DNA from: Gemmatimonadota bacterium
GTDB lineage: Bacteria > Gemmatimonadota > Gemmatimonadetes > Longimicrobiales > Gaopeijiaceae
NCBI GenBank assembly: GCA_022822325.1
Contig: JAJEBW010000036.1
Coordinates: 62,001 to 126,000, forward strand
Length of the DNA: 64,000 bases
Direction of reading: 5' to 3'
Positions 33,495-64,000 of this stretch are shown here, one piece after another. A program made the translations under genes and the position numbers. The first letter of the stretch is position 1, and each line of letters opens with the position of its first letter. The notes below the pieces were generated by a model that saw only the letters and a program-made list of their open reading frames with translations, was not told the DNA's origin and did no database searches.

Positions 33495-33556
33495 CCGGCC
33501 CCTGCGCGGGCCGGCCCCAATGGTCGCCGCGGAGACCGGGTGCGCGCGCAACCCCA
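33495..33556 (+). repeat. interspersed hairpin repeat, copy 1
   Basis: Core CCGGCCC-CTGCGC-GGGCCGG (33495-33514) is a perfect 7-bp stem with a 6-base loop. About 30 bases later comes the second block TGCGCGCGCAACCCC. The same two blocks recur at 59737-59797 (inverted), 61337-61396 and 63542-63601. It sits 6 bp after the TSUP stop and may double as a transcript end, but no U-run follows. Confidence 0.6.
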
Positions 33557-56343: not shown

Positions 56344-57063
56344 TCAGTTCAGCGTCACGTACCGCTCGAAGCGCGCGACCTCGTTCTCGTCCACATACTT
56401 CCCGATCTCGCGCCGAAACTGCTCCAGATCGGCATAGGGCCGGTACTCCTCGAACTCGTGCGCCATTCGGTCGGTCATTCCCGGCACCGCCATGATCTCG
56501 TCGCGCGTCGCGGCGTTCAGATCGATCGGCACAAAGACGTATCCCGCCAGCCGCTCGACCTCGGCCTCGTCGACGTACTTCCCGATCTCGCGCCGAAACT
56601 CGGCCATGTCCTCGTAGGGCCGGTATTCCTCGAACTCGTGCGCCATCCGGTCGCCGACCCCGGGGATCAGCAGGATCTCGTCGTTCGTCACGTCGTTCAG
56701 ATTGATCGGCAGCCAGAGCGACTCATAGGCCGCCAGCGCCGCCTCCTCGCCGACCGCGCCCGCCAACGCCCCGTGCAGATCAGCCGCGCGCAGCCAGGGC
56801 CGGCCTTCGACCACCGCATTCACGGCATCGTCGCTCATTCCCGCCAGCGCCATCAGCTCCTCCGCAGAGGCCAGATTGGGGTTGACGAGGGTCGCCGAGG
56901 GAGTATCGGCGCCGCCCGCGTCCGTCGTGGCGACGACCTCCGCGGCTTCCGGCTCGGATTCGGGCGCGTCGGCGCCGCCACCGCAACCGGAGACGAGCAG
57001 TGGGATCAGGACGACGGCGAGGGCTGCGGATGGGTTGACGGGGATGCATTTCATGCTGAACAT
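56344..57063 (-). CDS. helix-hairpin-helix lipoprotein with duplicated domain
   Basis: 239 residues; AGGAGAATCCC precedes ATG 57063. Lipobox LLVSGC (Cys27) is followed by an acidic linker (PESEPEAAEVV). Three ComEA-like helix-hairpin-helix units follow: NPNLASAEELMALAGMSDDA (61-80), then two nearly identical 60-residue blocks at 119-178 and 179-239, sharing DRMAHEFEEYRPY and FRREIGKYVDE. ComEA-type HhH domains bind DNA, but in this duplicated exported form the ligand is uncertain. It starts an operon with the PepSY protein and has a Fur-like box upstream, so a role in iron or heme handling is also possible. Confidence 0.82.
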   Translation of the reverse strand: MFSMKCIPVNPSAALAVVLIPLLVSGCGGGADAPESEPEAAEVVATTDAGGADTPSATLVNPNLASAEELMALAGMSDDAVNAVVEGRPWLRAADLHGALAGAVGEEAALAAYESLWLPINLNDVTNDEILLIPGVGDRMAHEFEEYRPYEDMAEFRREIGKYVDEAEVERLAGYVFVPIDLNAATRDEIMAVPGMTDRMAHEFEEYRPYADLEQFRREIGKYVDENEVARFERYVTLN

Positions 57064-59635: not shown

Positions 59636-59736
59636 CCGCCGGACAGGCCGAACCGCACGACGCAACGGACGAACCACAGGCTGCGGGCAACGTCTTTCAC
59701 GCGACGGCCAGCGTCGCCCGGCCAGCGAAATGCGAA

Positions 59737-59797
59737 GGGGTTGCGCGCGCGCCATCGTCGCCCGGCCAGCGCCCGGGCCGGCCCGCGCAGGGGCCGG
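59737..59797 (-). repeat. interspersed hairpin repeat, copy 2 (inverted)
   Basis: The hairpin CCGGCCC-loop-GGGCCGG lies at 59778-59797 and the block GGGGTTGCGCGCGCG at 59737-59751, so the element is in reverse orientation to copies 1, 3 and 4. Flanking TCTTTCCGGCC/GGCCGGAAAGAG also matches copies 3 and 4. It sits between the DUF5916 stop and the tRNA. Confidence 0.6.
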
Positions 59798-59881
59798 AAA
59801 GAGCCGTCCAGGCCGCGGCGCCCGGGAGAGTGTCGCGCAGGGCGGTCGCGGGCATCGGGCAAATGGATCCGGCCCGCGAAG

Positions 59882-59954
59882 TGGAGCCAACCGGGATCGA
59901 ACCGGTGACCTCTGGCTTGCAAAGCCAGCGCTCTCCCAGCTGAGCTATGGCCCC
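59882..59954 (-). tRNA. tRNA-Ala (anticodon UGC)
   Basis: The minus strand folds into a complete 73-nt cloverleaf: acceptor GGGGCCA/TGGCTCC, D arm GCTCAGCTGGGAGAGC, anticodon stem CTGGC/GCCAG with loop TTTGCAA (anticodon TGC), and T arm ACCGG-TTCGATC-CCGGT. The third acceptor pair is G3-U70, the alanine identity element. The discriminator is A. No CCA is encoded. tRNA genes are common integration sites; the unusual 60215-63653 region begins about 260 bp away. Confidence 0.97.
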
Positions 59955-60214
59955 ATGGGGGTCGGCCCTGGGCCGACGTCCGCGCACCCAAGATAGCCCG
60001 CGTCGCCCGTGGCCGGAAGCCGTGCGGCAACGCAGGCGGATTGGCTCGTGCCCGTTCTCGGTCGGTCGGGCGCTGGGCGCTCTCTTGCGGGTGCTGACCA
60101 GCGCATTGCGCGATTCCCTCGCAATCACCACGCTACCGGCCAAACCGCTTATAACCACGGCCCCGGTGATCGCTACTACGGCCGCCGGGTTGATGGAAGC
60201 TGCTCCGGGAGATT

Positions 60215-60886
60215 TCATCGCGGGAGGTCCGATTCCGATTCGATGCGGAACCGCGCGGCACACCACAATCTGCCGTTCAGTTCAGGGATCCAACCCTCTG
60301 GAACGAGGTCGGTCCCGCGGTGCATCTTCGGCGCTTTCTTCGTTGTCTCTGTCCAAAGGAGCATTCCACACGTATGCCGCCACGGCTGCGAGACACCCGA
60401 GAATGACAACGGGCACGAGGACGGGCCAAAGCCCAATCGCTCGACGACTTCCGTCATCTCAAGTTCCATCGACCACTCGTCAAGTAGATCAAGATAGGAT
60501 TGCGCTTGAGCTGCGGGGCCGCCACCAGATGCCGCGGCACCCGGTTCAATGGATTCTGTGCGCCTGCAGGCGATCAGATCAATCCCTCTGGTATAGGCCT
60601 CAAAGCAGAATCCACCGGCTATTCCGATTGCCCCCATTGCTATCCTCTTCCACGTTCGTACACGCTGGCCAGCGATGATCTTGGCGGCGCCACGGGCTGC
60701 CCTGTAGGTCTTGACTGCGCCACGCCAAACACCCACAGCGTAACCGGCCGGAGTGGCAGAGGCCGCACACCCGGCCAGGGTAAGCAGGAAGGCCGTATTC
60801 TCCCCCTCGCACCCGGTGGCGACCGCTCTCGTCAAAGGACCGCGTACGAAACATTCGGTCGGCCACGCGGTAAGTGGAAGGTCCAT
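60215..60886 (-). CDS. hypothetical two-helix protein behind leader cassette A
   Basis: 223 residues from ATG 60886 (a TTG at 60892 would overlap the preceding stop by 4 bp). Two hydrophobic Gly/Ala-rich segments, AFLLTLAGCAASATPAGYAV and KRIAMGAIGIAGGFCFEAY, are separated by a basic stretch (TYRAARGAAKIIAGQRVRTW). The second half is soluble, with LDLLDEWSMELEMTEVVERL and several cysteines (SCPLS, HTCGM, LWCAARF). No family was recognised. The pair of short Gly-rich helices with a basic loop recalls bacteriocin-like or holin-like peptides, but the long C-terminus argues against a simple assignment. GC content looks lower than in core genes. Confidence 0.45.
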   Translation of the reverse strand: MDLPLTAWPTECFVRGPLTRAVATGCEGENTAFLLTLAGCAASATPAGYAVGVWRGAVKTYRAARGAAKIIAGQRVRTWKRIAMGAIGIAGGFCFEAYTRGIDLIACRRTESIEPGAAASGGGPAAQAQSYLDLLDEWSMELEMTEVVERLGFGPSSCPLSFSGVSQPWRHTCGMLLWTETTKKAPKMHRGTDLVPEGWIPELNGRLWCAARFRIESESDLPR

Positions 60887-60888
60887 GC

Positions 60889-61080
60889 TCAACCCAGCCC
60901 ATCCAGAGTTGAGGCTGGCATCCCGCGGAAGGTGGGAACCCGGGTTTCGAGAACGTCCGTTCGTCGTGGACTCCCGACAAGATCCTCGTCGGCCACGGGG
61001 ACGCGGTTGTCAACCGTCTCGGCGGTCGGAACCGCGAAGACGGGCGACGGGGCCGCCACCACCATGCCGAGCGCCAGCAC
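60889..61080 (-). CDS. short exported leader-like peptide (cassette A)
   Basis: 63 residues from GTG 61080, placed to match the better-supported start of the homologous gene at 63285. The first 35 residues (LALGMVVAAPSPVFAVPTAE, then TVDNRVPVADED) are almost identical to the N-terminus of the Cys-rich protein 62683-63285. After this, similarity fades (DLVGSPRRTDVLETRVPTFR) and the frame stops at TGA 60889-60891 without any cysteine. It may be a truncated Cys-rich protein or a short peptide in its own right. The next gene starts within a few bases. Confidence 0.5.
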   Translation of the reverse strand: MLALGMVVAAPSPVFAVPTAETVDNRVPVADEDLVGSPRRTDVLETRVPTFRGMPASTLDGLG

Positions 61081-61147
61081 GCACACACCATCCTGGGTGA
61101 GAAGTGATTCCCCCCGGGAGGCGGTTTCCCCCCGGGAGAATGTGAAA

Positions 61148-61177
61148 ATGATCAACGCCTTTTGGGGTCGGTGTCAA
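61148..61177 (-). promoter_or_regulatory. predicted promoter of cassette A
   Basis: Minus-strand TTGACA (61172-61177), 18 bases, then GATCAT (61148-61153). An identical arrangement occurs in cassette B at 63352-63381. The leader to the GTG start is about 60 bases and holds the duplicated CTCCCGGGGGGAA. Confidence 0.5.
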
Positions 61178-61336
61178 GTCCGAAGCGTTCCGGGCCCCCG
61201 GAAACCCGTGCCCCACATCCATATGCGCTACCGGGCCCGTCCATTTCGGGACCGGGCCGGAGGAACGCGAGAGCGTTCGCGTCAGTTCACGTTGGTTGGA
61301 CGCCCCATTTGGGCGCAATGGCGCGGACGGCCCTTT

Positions 61337-61396
61337 CCGGCCCCTGCGCGGGCCGGCCCGGGCGCTCACCGGATGAAGATGGTGCGCGCGCAACCC
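61337..61396 (+). repeat. interspersed hairpin repeat, copy 3
   Basis: CCGGCCC-CTGCGC-GGGCCGG at 61337-61356 and TGCGCGCGCAACCCC near 61382-61396, within direct repeat A. Same orientation as copies 1 and 4. Confidence 0.65.
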
Positions 61397-61469
61397 CACT
61401 CGCGCTTTTCGTTGGTCCGCGGTGCGCCCCGCTCGTCGATTCCGGTCGATGGAATGCGGGAGCCCGGAT

Positions 61470-62690
61470 TCAGCTTGCCGGAATGATCTCCCGGGCTTCC
61501 ACGAAATTAACGTCCAAGGCATCATACGCAACGCCCCACAAGAGATGCCCTCGATACGCCAGCGGGAAGAAGTAGTCGGGCAACAACACGCCGCTCAGAG
61601 TATCGTCCTGATCGCTTCCCCGCATGACGGGATACCAGACGCGCACGGTGTCCGTCTCCTCGTTCCCGGCAGTCCTCAACCAAACCTCGCCATTCCCGGT
61701 TGCAGAGATGACATCCACCGCAGGGTAATGCTCCGGCACGAAGAGTGCTTCCTGCAAACTGCGCCGGGCGCGATCCAGCGATACGTCAGGCCATGTGGCC
61801 GCAACTTCTCGCGATTCCGCGTCCAGGAATCTCCTGACGGCGGCGGGTTCAATGCGAACCGGAGGAAACTGGACATTGCGCGTCCACACCGTGTCGCCGT
61901 CGATCGACACCTCTGTGAGGTAAACCTGTCCCGGAGCGAGCCCTCTTCTCCTCGCAATCACCACGCTACCGGTCTCGGGGTCGAAGACTGTCAGGTCCGA
62001 ATCCCCGTAGGGCTGGACAGAATGGTATCCGCCCACATCTCCTTCGTAGGGCCGGATGCTCAGTCCCCCGTTCCGATCGTCGACTTGCAACAGCGTCCGC
62101 ACATCCCAGCCGGAATCCGTCTCGGTCACGATCAATAGTGGGTACTCCCATGTTGGATCATCGCCATGCCAACCGGCTGTGACACTGGCGGGTGTCTGCG
62201 GAAACGCCACGATCTCTCCCTGGCGGGTCCGGCCCATGGGCACCAACCGAAAGCCTCGGTAGCTTGTGGCGGCGGGCAACTGATGGACACCGGTTACTTC
62301 CCCTGCCGACGAGAACGAGGTGAATCTCGAACCGTCCATCACTTGGAAGCCGTCGTCCAATGGAACCACTGCTCCGGGATCGCGGAAGTCCCCCGGACCG
62401 TCGCCCCGTCGGCCAACCGTGTTGAGCAACGTGCCCTCCGGTGTCCATATCGTAATCTCAGCGTTCAGCCGGTCAATCACGTAAATGCGCTTTCCGTCCC
62501 GGGACACGGCGACGTTCGCAATCCAGCCGAATGGCGTCTGGCCCTCCGCTTGATCGCCGATTCTGTGCTCGACTGCCGTGACGAGGTAGTCTTGTCCGTA
62601 TTCCGGCCCGTATTCCCGCGCGTCGCAGGCCGCCAGGATGGACCCGCAGCACAGCGAAAGAAGAAGGGTCGCTCGCGGAAGACTAGCCAC
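61470..62690 (-). CDS. 6-bladed beta-propeller lipoprotein paired with Cys-rich protein
   Basis: 406 residues from GTG 62690, whose codon overlaps the TAG of the Cys-rich gene (GTGGCTAG). Lipoprotein signal ATLLLSLCCGSILAAC. Blades include NVAVSRDGKRIYVIDRLNAE, VGRRGDGPGDFRDPGAVVPL, DLTVFDPETGSVVIARRRG and VISATGNGEVWLRTAGNEE. It differs in sequence from the QEVxELP group but has the same fold and GDGPGDF motif. The translational overlap and shared promoter with the Cys-rich gene point to a stoichiometric pair, perhaps a surface propeller with its secreted ligand or chaperoned client. Compare the broken pair at 2520-4036. Confidence 0.85.
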   Translation of the reverse strand: MASLPRATLLLSLCCGSILAACDAREYGPEYGQDYLVTAVEHRIGDQAEGQTPFGWIANVAVSRDGKRIYVIDRLNAEITIWTPEGTLLNTVGRRGDGPGDFRDPGAVVPLDDGFQVMDGSRFTSFSSAGEVTGVHQLPAATSYRGFRLVPMGRTRQGEIVAFPQTPASVTAGWHGDDPTWEYPLLIVTETDSGWDVRTLLQVDDRNGGLSIRPYEGDVGGYHSVQPYGDSDLTVFDPETGSVVIARRRGLAPGQVYLTEVSIDGDTVWTRNVQFPPVRIEPAAVRRFLDAESREVAATWPDVSLDRARRSLQEALFVPEHYPAVDVISATGNGEVWLRTAGNEETDTVRVWYPVMRGSDQDDTLSGVLLPDYFFPLAYRGHLLWGVAYDALDVNFVEAREIIPAS

Positions 62691-63285
62691 CAGCCAGAAT
62701 CACTCTTGATCGGTGGCCGACGTTGGCGGTTGCCAAACGAGCGACCGCTGCGCCACCGCACTTCTGCCTCAAGACCAACTCATTCCCGGCGACCCCGATG
62801 TAATAGCGGCCGTCGCTCGGGAGCATCTCGCCGCTTGCGAATGCGTCCAGGGCTGCATCGGTCTCGTCGATGCTCGCGAAAGTCTCCTCGCAAAGTTCCC
62901 CTCGGTCGATGCAGCGTCCGCAGGGGCGGCCCTTCCTGTACCCGCCCTGACGGCAGTTCGATGACCCCACTTCGGTGGCAGCGCATGTCCTGTACTCACC
63001 CCCAATGTGGCACTTGGCCCGTGCGCACCCCCAGCATTCATCTTCCTCTTGCGGCAAGGGCACTCGGACCGTCACCGCCCCATCCGGTCCCGCAGCGGTT
63101 CCGGACACTGCACTGCGTGTACTCGGGGAGGCGAATGCGCGAACCCCGAGATCCAGAAAGGGAGGTCGCGCGAGACTCCTGACGGCATCCTCGCCGGCCA
63201 CGGGGACGGGGTTGTCAACCGTCTCGGCGGTCGGAACCGCGAAGACCGGCGACGGGGCCGCCACCACCATGCCGAGCGCCAGCAC
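62683..63285 (-). CDS. secreted Cys-rich protein, unknown family
   Basis: 200 residues. GTG 63285 is chosen because AGGAGGG lies seven bases upstream and the frame further up is disrupted relative to copy A. Signal peptide LALGMVVAAPSPVFA, then a spacer. Eight of the nine cysteines fall in about 45 residues: ECWGCARAKC, YRTCAATEVGSSNC, GRPCGRC and GELC; the ninth is in LRQKCGG. The C-terminal part (GRYYIGVAGNELVLRQKC, then VGHRSRVILAGG) is compact and beta-like. CxxC pairs could bind zinc or form disulfides; in an exported protein disulfides are likelier. I know no matching family. It overlaps the propeller gene by 8 bp. Confidence 0.72.
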   Translation of the reverse strand: MLALGMVVAAPSPVFAVPTAETVDNPVPVAGEDAVRSLARPPFLDLGVRAFASPSTRSAVSGTAAGPDGAVTVRVPLPQEEDECWGCARAKCHIGGEYRTCAATEVGSSNCRQGGYRKGRPCGRCIDRGELCEETFASIDETDAALDAFASGEMLPSDGRYYIGVAGNELVLRQKCGGAAVARLATANVGHRSRVILAGG

Positions 63286-63351
63286 GCACACACCCTCCTG
63301 GGTGAGAAGTGAATCCCCCGGGAGGCGGTTTCCCCCCGGGAGAATGTGAAA

Positions 63352-63381
63352 ATGATCAACGCCTTTTGGGGTCGGTGTCAA
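63352..63381 (-). promoter_or_regulatory. predicted promoter of cassette B
   Basis: Minus-strand TTGACA (63376-63381), 18 bases, then GATCAT (63352-63357), identical in layout to cassette A. It drives the Cys-rich/propeller pair. Confidence 0.5.
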
Positions 63382-63541
63382 GTCCGAAGCGTTCCAGGGC
63401 CCCGGAAACCCGTTCCCCCACATCCATTTCGGCTACAGGGTCCGTCCATTTCGGGACCAGGCCGGAGGAATTCGAGAGCGTTCGCGTCAGTTCACGTTGG
63501 TTGGACGCCCCATTTGGGCGCAATGGCGCGGACGGCCCTTT

Positions 63542-63601
63542 CCGGCCCCTGCGCGGGCCGGCCCAGGCGCTCGCCGGATGAAGATGGTGCGCGCGCAACC
63601 C
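63542..63601 (+). repeat. interspersed hairpin repeat, copy 4
   Basis: CCGGCCC-CTGCGC-GGGCCGG at 63542-63561 and TGCGCGCGCAACCCC ending near 63601, within direct repeat B. Confidence 0.65.
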
Positions 63602-63733
63602 CACTCGCGCTTCTCGTTGGTCCGCGGTGCGCCCCGCTCGTCGATTCCGGTCGCCGCAAGAATGGCCGGTTGGCCCGGGGTCGCGAAAGCGCGTCCCTGG
63701 AGATTGCGCCTCCCGCCGGTTAGATTGGCCGTC

Positions 63734-64000
63734 ATGAATGGTCCCCTCCGGTGCTGGTGCGCCATCGTGCTCCTGGTGGCTTGCACAGCCGATTCGGGCT
63801 CCCGGGACGGAACCGAATCCTCCCCTTCCGCCGAACCCGCGCCTTCCGCTGCGCCTCCCGCCGCGGTCGCTCCCGATTCGTCGCCGACTCCCGATTCCGC
63901 CGCGTCGATCGCCGGCTCCGCGTCCACCGTGGATTCCGTGGCCCCCGCCCCCGCCCCTCCCACTCCCGAGGAGATCGCGCGGGAGCTGGATCGCTCCTTC
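63734..64000 (+). CDS. lipoprotein with Pro/Ser/Ala linker (cut by window end)
   Basis: ATG 63734 opens MNGPLRCWCAIVLLVAC, a lipoprotein signal with lipobox LVAC, and the frame runs off the window edge after 89 codons with no stop. The mature part so far is a disordered Ser/Pro/Ala/Asp linker (ESSPSAEPAPSAAPPAAVAP and more), ending TPEEIARELDRSF, where a folded domain seems to begin. The function cannot be judged. It is divergent from the Cys-rich gene. Confidence 0.7.
   Translation, partial: MNGPLRCWCAIVLLVACTADSGSRDGTESSPSAEPAPSAAPPAAVAPDSSPTPDSAASIAGSASTVDSVAPAPAPPTPEEIARELDRSF

Follow-up and report, generated by a model that had tools for sequence, protein, structure and literature searches.

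What does a locus represent in which the 5' end of a gene occurs twice, each copy leading into a different downstream frame? Such an arrangement is present in the DNA stretch of 64,000 nucleotides analyzed here (the window; G000:C46:62001-126000, contig JAJEBW010000036.1), which lies inside a 154-kb contig of a 3.48-Mb Gemmatimonadota assembly comprising 49 contigs with a genome completeness of 94%. One copy of a direct repeat of about 465 bp opens a gene for a small cysteine-rich protein that is followed by the gene of a propeller lipoprotein, whereas the other leads into unrelated sequence. With a probability of roughly 0.55 we regard the locus as one member of a multi-copy pair of Cys-rich protein and propeller lipoprotein genes with mosaic partner proteins, in which the repeat is a local duplication of a 5' end and the pair forms a matched surface unit.

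The Cys-rich open reading frame (ORF) of the window encodes nine Cys residues after the sequence VPTAE. An alignment of 14 members, selected from 21 loci after omission of partial or unclear ones (L037, L040, L041, L045, L055, L056 and L059, the last being the locus in genome G008), reveals seven invariant Cys residues at a mean column identity of 27%. In the numbering of the window protein these are C91, C94, C108, C118, C132, C139 and C183. The C-terminal motif of the family lies around LPADG...VVRRKCD..VARV. The commoner pattern across the loci is a constant Cys-rich C-terminal half combined with varied N-termini. In both structure models the C-terminal unit consists of a helix and three strands (predicted local distance difference test of ~71-77 for residues 151-200 and 80-89 for residues 91-140), and the models showed no convincing known fold. 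Comparison with Pfam and NCBIfam yielded nothing better than E 0.05, and comparison with solved structures nothing better than E 0.63. A profile of the family, for which the best 30 candidates per genome were scored in the taxonomic family and the best 12 in a sample of the phylum, found matches in 17 of 121 and 14 of 298 genomes, respectively. The own genus (23 genomes including the own) accounts for 14 of the 17 and for 12 of the 14. Close relatives in four records originate from Gemmatimonadota or Longimicrobiales metagenome-assembled genomes. Eight loci matching around query residues 58-147 (L048-L052, L060, L061 and L063) were rejected as members; by sequence, seven look like DnaJ-type chaperones and one like neither. 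The tally obtained with the protein query (19 of 59 genomes) includes these DnaJ-type loci, and the counts given here rest on the profile searches instead.

The partner gene encodes a 6-bladed NHL-like propeller. An alignment of 16 such propellers, headed by that of the window, matches solved NHL chains with a best E of 7.6e-27, which places them in this fold class, and their N-termini appear lipobox-like by eye. The two genes are linked. The profile searches of the taxonomic family and the phylum provided 34 Cys loci, 32 of which have room for a downstream gene; L080, in which a re-scan gave no readable Cys frame, and L082, which ends at a contig edge, were left out. A propeller gene follows the Cys frame on the same strand in 31 of the 32 loci, 30 times at a distance of -9 to 361 nt and once, in L086, overlapping it. 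The window member possesses all seven Cys residues, and the propeller frame overlaps its own. Two further observations concern unusual loci. L095 (genome G245, from another family of the class) has no propeller downstream and a weak one upstream on the same strand (25.0 bits), that is, in reversed order. L086 (G021), L093 and L097 (both G003) carry short or overlapping Cys frames beside propellers and are perhaps decaying pairs.

The members of the pair also diverge in a correlated manner. Pairwise distances between Cys-rich proteins and between propellers correlate with a Mantel r of 0.69 in 22 pairs (22 of 33 Cys loci; those with a short Cys match, a gap not between -60 and 150 nt or a weak propeller were omitted), a value reached in 0 of 5000 permutations, and r is 0.56 over 228 comparisons after removal of close ones. 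L085 is the nearest relative of the window pair on both the Cys and the propeller side. A crude survey of small frames just 5' of propellers, among the loci examined, found no recurring partner besides the Cys family. It covered propellers above 40 bits, which places the G008 propeller outside, and loci that had partly been picked by their Cys matches. The 80 regions include 12 around matches near query residues 58-147, mostly of the DnaJ type.

The apparently mosaic make-up of these genes is illustrated by a chimera in G008. Residues 6-79 of the window protein, comprising leader and linker, match a frame in this genome with 39% identity (E 1.9e-4, calculated for one genome), and none of 5000 shuffles scored as high, neither for the whole stretch nor for the linker alone. 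The view that the leader lacks any relative was dropped on the basis of this match. The G008 frame (L059, re-fetched as L217:562-1056) continues after the linker into an unrelated C-terminus without a Cys module, and no other relative of this C-terminus was found in the 296 loci examined. A propeller-like frame of 411 aa, scoring 39.3 bits, begins before the G008 frame ends. The complete G008 feature, consisting of the leader relative, the unrelated C-terminus and the propeller, spans positions 556-2288 of L217. A profile of three leaders, built from the window pair and G008 and hence including its own matches, detected just these three below E 0.3 among 14200 frames of the 296 loci. The linker of L035 (G003), the nearest relative of the window pair, is similar to the G008 linker, with 5 of 5000 shuffles reaching the same score, and shows no such similarity to the linker of the window (3593 of 5000).

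The preferred reading can be outlined as follows. In this genus of Gemmatimonadota, a multi-copy gene pair would encode a small Cys protein of the disulfide type, exported in intact relatives, and then a propeller lipoprotein that is presumably anchored in the envelope. The Cys-rich protein may fold oxidatively outside the cytoplasm and dock on the propeller, and together they could form a matched unit for binding or sensing at the surface. The genes of the small partners appear to be assembled as mosaics, with the C-terminal half placed behind several N-termini, and the N-terminal half of the window protein recurring once elsewhere, in G008, with another C-terminus and an adjoining propeller. 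The pairs have probably been duplicated, diversified and in places recombined. Several observations weigh against this reading. One of the seven Cys residues is absent from a further homologue, P0008, and 9 of the 23 genus genomes lack a Cys-family match among their best 30 candidates. In neither the window nor G008 does the frame show a clear start ahead of the hydrophobic stretch (in G008, no ATG, GTG or TTG precedes it), and these copies may not be exported. Some of the linked propellers are weak (L079 with 33.7 bits, L094 with 54.6 bits) and that of L093 is partial. Among the 13 within-genome comparisons the correlation is gone (r -0.10). Thus, common descent of entire operons may account for part of the co-divergence. 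Finally, the genomes G000, G001, G002, G003, G009, G018 and G021 each contain 43-107 propeller matches at E <= 1e-10 but only 0-5 Cys-family matches (best 30 candidates each), which indicates that most propellers are without such a partner.

The repeat copies are arranged in direct orientation on the minus strand at a spacing of ~2205 bp. They share 95.5% identity over 468 columns, and the 21 differences include one gap each way; the edges are sharp, and the sequences part abruptly beyond them. The first-pass annotation had described two ~465-bp copies with the same predicted promoter and tandem GC-rich leader repeats, which diverge downstream into different frames, one of them a nine-Cys protein followed by a propeller, and in all these points it was borne out. 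Both copies contain the site TTGACA-18-GATCAT (10 of 12 matches), and three promoter-like sites were found in 59700-64000 compared with 0.5 on average in shuffles. Downstream of the shared site are two GC-rich units, CTCCCGGGGG(G). The nearly identical exported N-terminus that had been proposed stands only in part. The peptide LALGMVVAAPSPVFAVPTAE is common to both copies; however, a one-base difference in the length of a G-run places the frames upstream of it out of register, and its export is doubtful. Just before the start region, copy 1 reads AGGATGG and copy 2 AGGAGGG.

Beyond the repeat, copy 1 leads into sequence that appears orphaned. A weak alignment of copy 1 past the repeat (68%, residues 10-77) was discarded, as DNA homology stops at 60982. 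The following 223-aa frame, formerly interpreted as a two-helix cargo, is the sole stop-free frame of six; its codon score is slightly negative yet the best of the six, and such scores separate frames only weakly. No relative was found in 58 other genomes, and in a large protein collection the single row was marked as encoded by the window itself. Plasmid relatives of 60900-63700 were likewise not found. The 465-bp repeat most likely arose recently, by local duplication of the start of the Cys-rich gene, and copy 1 is probably a decaying remnant that has lost its partner. A further repeat within the window is tandem (56372-56711; period 180, 1.9 copies, 80% matches).

The 5' end of the Cys-rich gene differs from that of a 99%-identical homologue. 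From VCVLALG on, this homologue, P0001, which is encoded on a 1528-bp contig, shares 200 of 202 residues with the window protein. It begins, however, with MFRSIRSLIVAT, a normal-looking signal peptide, and is unlike the window before its residue 13. Signal peptides were also recognized by eye in other family members. The start of the P0001 signal peptide was looked for in 60800-61460 and 63000-64000 and was not found, and the form present in the window occurs in both repeat copies. At 99% identity, two very closely related lineages thus have different 5' ends. Hence the local gene looks rearranged, and it is uncertain whether the product of copy 2 is exported.

At its upstream end, the repeat carries one of ~73 copies of a 61-nt element dispersed through the genome. 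The element starts with GGGGTTGCGCGCGC and ends with GGCCGGCCCGCGCAGGGGCCGG; information drops outside these ends, and the interior is variable. In the alignment of element edges the copies were picked by an exact 22-nt block, which is therefore invariant by construction. With up to 2 mismatches, this 22-nt core occurs 73 times in the own genome (exact in 66 of the 67 matches listed); each of the 58 relatives has 0-2 occurrences, and only 8 have any. A control with the reversed pattern gave 0 matches in the own genome and was about as frequent among relatives as the core itself, so that isolated matches in relatives need context. In two other species of the same genus (G006 and G009), exact cores lie in surroundings that resemble each other. 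A covariance model located the element in at least 75 places (among the best 150 of 11547 candidates). It also found one match each in three further species of the same genus at corresponding, intergenic-looking sites (L173, L174 and L175 at 1501-1579), possibly an ancestral site of the element. An interpretation as structured RNA was rejected, as folding of 4 copies was no better than that of shuffles (z -0.29 to 1.52) and 12 loci gave no Rfam match. The pattern was not found in viral contigs. Positions relative to genes were assigned with a crude ORF scorer, which called 12 of 30 copies inside a frame, and nothing was drawn from this result. A nearly fixed core with a variable interior would be better explained by a DNA site under selection than by transposed copies undergoing drift.

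These data permit a bolder version of the preferred reading, namely that the propeller lipoproteins and their small exported mosaic partners, which exchange halves between genes, constitute an undescribed matched surface recognition system. In the species of the window, 5' ends would be reshuffled in the vicinity of the 61-nt element, which is amplified there to ~73 copies with a nearly invariant 22-nt core. We put this forward tentatively, and it is less likely to be right than wrong by a good margin. A further explanation, which we consider unlikely, is a recombination hot spot, where 5' ends are exchanged by way of either the 61-nt elements or the 465-bp direct repeats and the Cys-propeller pair can be lost in a one-way loop-out deletion. 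The element near the upstream end of both repeats, with a third, inverted one nearby, would be consistent with it, as would the distinct start of P0001 and an isolated 23-nt exact repeat (2 matches compared with a mean of 0.00 in 100 shuffles). However, the 465-bp repeat and the element end at different positions, and a strain rearranged at the DNA level was not seen, P0001 having been compared as protein.

The modular secretion cassette favored by the first-pass annotation, in which loci next to propellers combine a constant leader with varied cargos, fares worse and appears quite improbable. Two local copies with differing downstream frames would agree with it, and so would G008 with its related leader and linker, unrelated C-terminus and propeller behind. 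On the other hand, when the own genome was searched with the repeat DNA (best 40 of 139 candidates), the leader DNA (best 11 of 43) and the protein, only the two leaders of the window and no third were found. Leader DNA had no comparable match in the 58 relatives (59 genomes including the own): those obtained in 23 of the 58 covered 23-52 bases with an E of 4.8e-5 at best and were taken as background, as was one additional 29-base match in the own genome. Moreover, of the three endings behind the leader, the Cys module of the window, the unrelated C-terminus of G008 and the orphan frame of copy 1, only the Cys ending recurs, and the cargo of copy 1 has no relatives. The search of relatives for repeat and leader, proposed as a check, returned no shared DNA and, with the Cys-rich protein as query, one relative at the protein level. 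The repeat itself is regarded as a local duplication with probable decay, and the wider idea of the first-pass annotation is supported by a single locus, that of G008, which has the arrangement named there as support. In sum, the earlier observation was partly confirmed and its interpretation is partly supported. Erroneous joining of repeat copies during assembly, suggested by the 49 contigs and the other 5' end of P0001, is very unlikely for copies that differ at 21 positions inside a 154-kb contig.

Features of the window around the repeat pair (positions in the window)
Feature	Position	Strand	Remarks
Repeat copy 2	63187..63653	-	61-nt element, promoter-like site, GC-rich units and start of Cys-rich gene; 95.5% identical to copy 1
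Repeat copy 1	60982..61448	-	starts ~20 bp past end of propeller ORF
Cys-rich protein frame	62683..63306	-	207 aa as searched; true start uncertain; seven family-invariant Cys
Propeller ORF	61470..62690	-	406 aa, 6-bladed, NHL-like; lipoprotein-like N-terminus; overlaps end of Cys-rich frame
Sigma-70-like site, copy 2	63352..63381	-	TTGACA-18-GATCAT; promoter-site scan
Sigma-70-like site, copy 1	61148..61177	-	TTGACA-18-GATCAT; promoter-site scan
Leader frame, copy 1	60889..61155	-	88 aa; tail beyond 60982 unrelated to copy 2; probably remnant
Orphan frame	60215..60886	-	223 aa; no relative found
61-nt element, repeat copy 2	63542..63602	-	
61-nt element, repeat copy 1	61337..61397	-	
61-nt element, third	59737..59797	+	near tRNA-Ala (59881-59954)
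61-nt element, fourth	33495..33555	-	
Isolated 23-nt exact repeat of propeller DNA	60117..60139	.	repeats 61950-61972; both in open frames reading GSVVIAR

The propellers are numerous, and a dedicated, co-diverging small partner provides a concrete handle on them, as the pair lends itself to expression and binding tests. G008 indicates that partner halves can recombine, which would make specificity testable through natural variants. Among the papers listed by the literature searches, none concerned these propellers.

Three known systems invite comparison. REP elements are short, GC-rich, palindromic dispersed blocks that are accompanied by RAYT (Y1) transposases. The 61-nt element is likewise a short GC-rich palindromic block with many dispersed copies. 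However, it has two conserved blocks with a variable interior, and no Y1 transposase matched in the own genome, which is 94% complete, or in 15 genomes of the same genus. The propeller of the window resembles NHL and 6-bladed propellers (PF17170 or DUF5128; NHL chains such as Thin and TRIM71) in its profile. It differs from them in its lipoprotein-like N-terminus, in a score of 20.6 bits against PF17170 that is below the cut-off of 22.9 and covers 47 matched residues, and in the small Cys-rich gene immediately 5' of it. As an exported-partner family, the Cys-rich proteins apparently have no described counterpart, judged by sequence comparison. Closest in layout is NVEALA, a group of small exported proteins encoded beside 6-bladed propellers in Bacteroidota, which shares the adjoining genes of a small exported protein and a propeller lipoprotein. 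No NVEALA row appeared among the Pfam matches of the 14 aligned members (E <= 10), in a library presumed to hold the model and with filters that drop most weak matches. Unlike NVEALA, the Cys family belongs to another phylum and is distinguished by its seven-Cys pattern and a C-terminal unit of its own.

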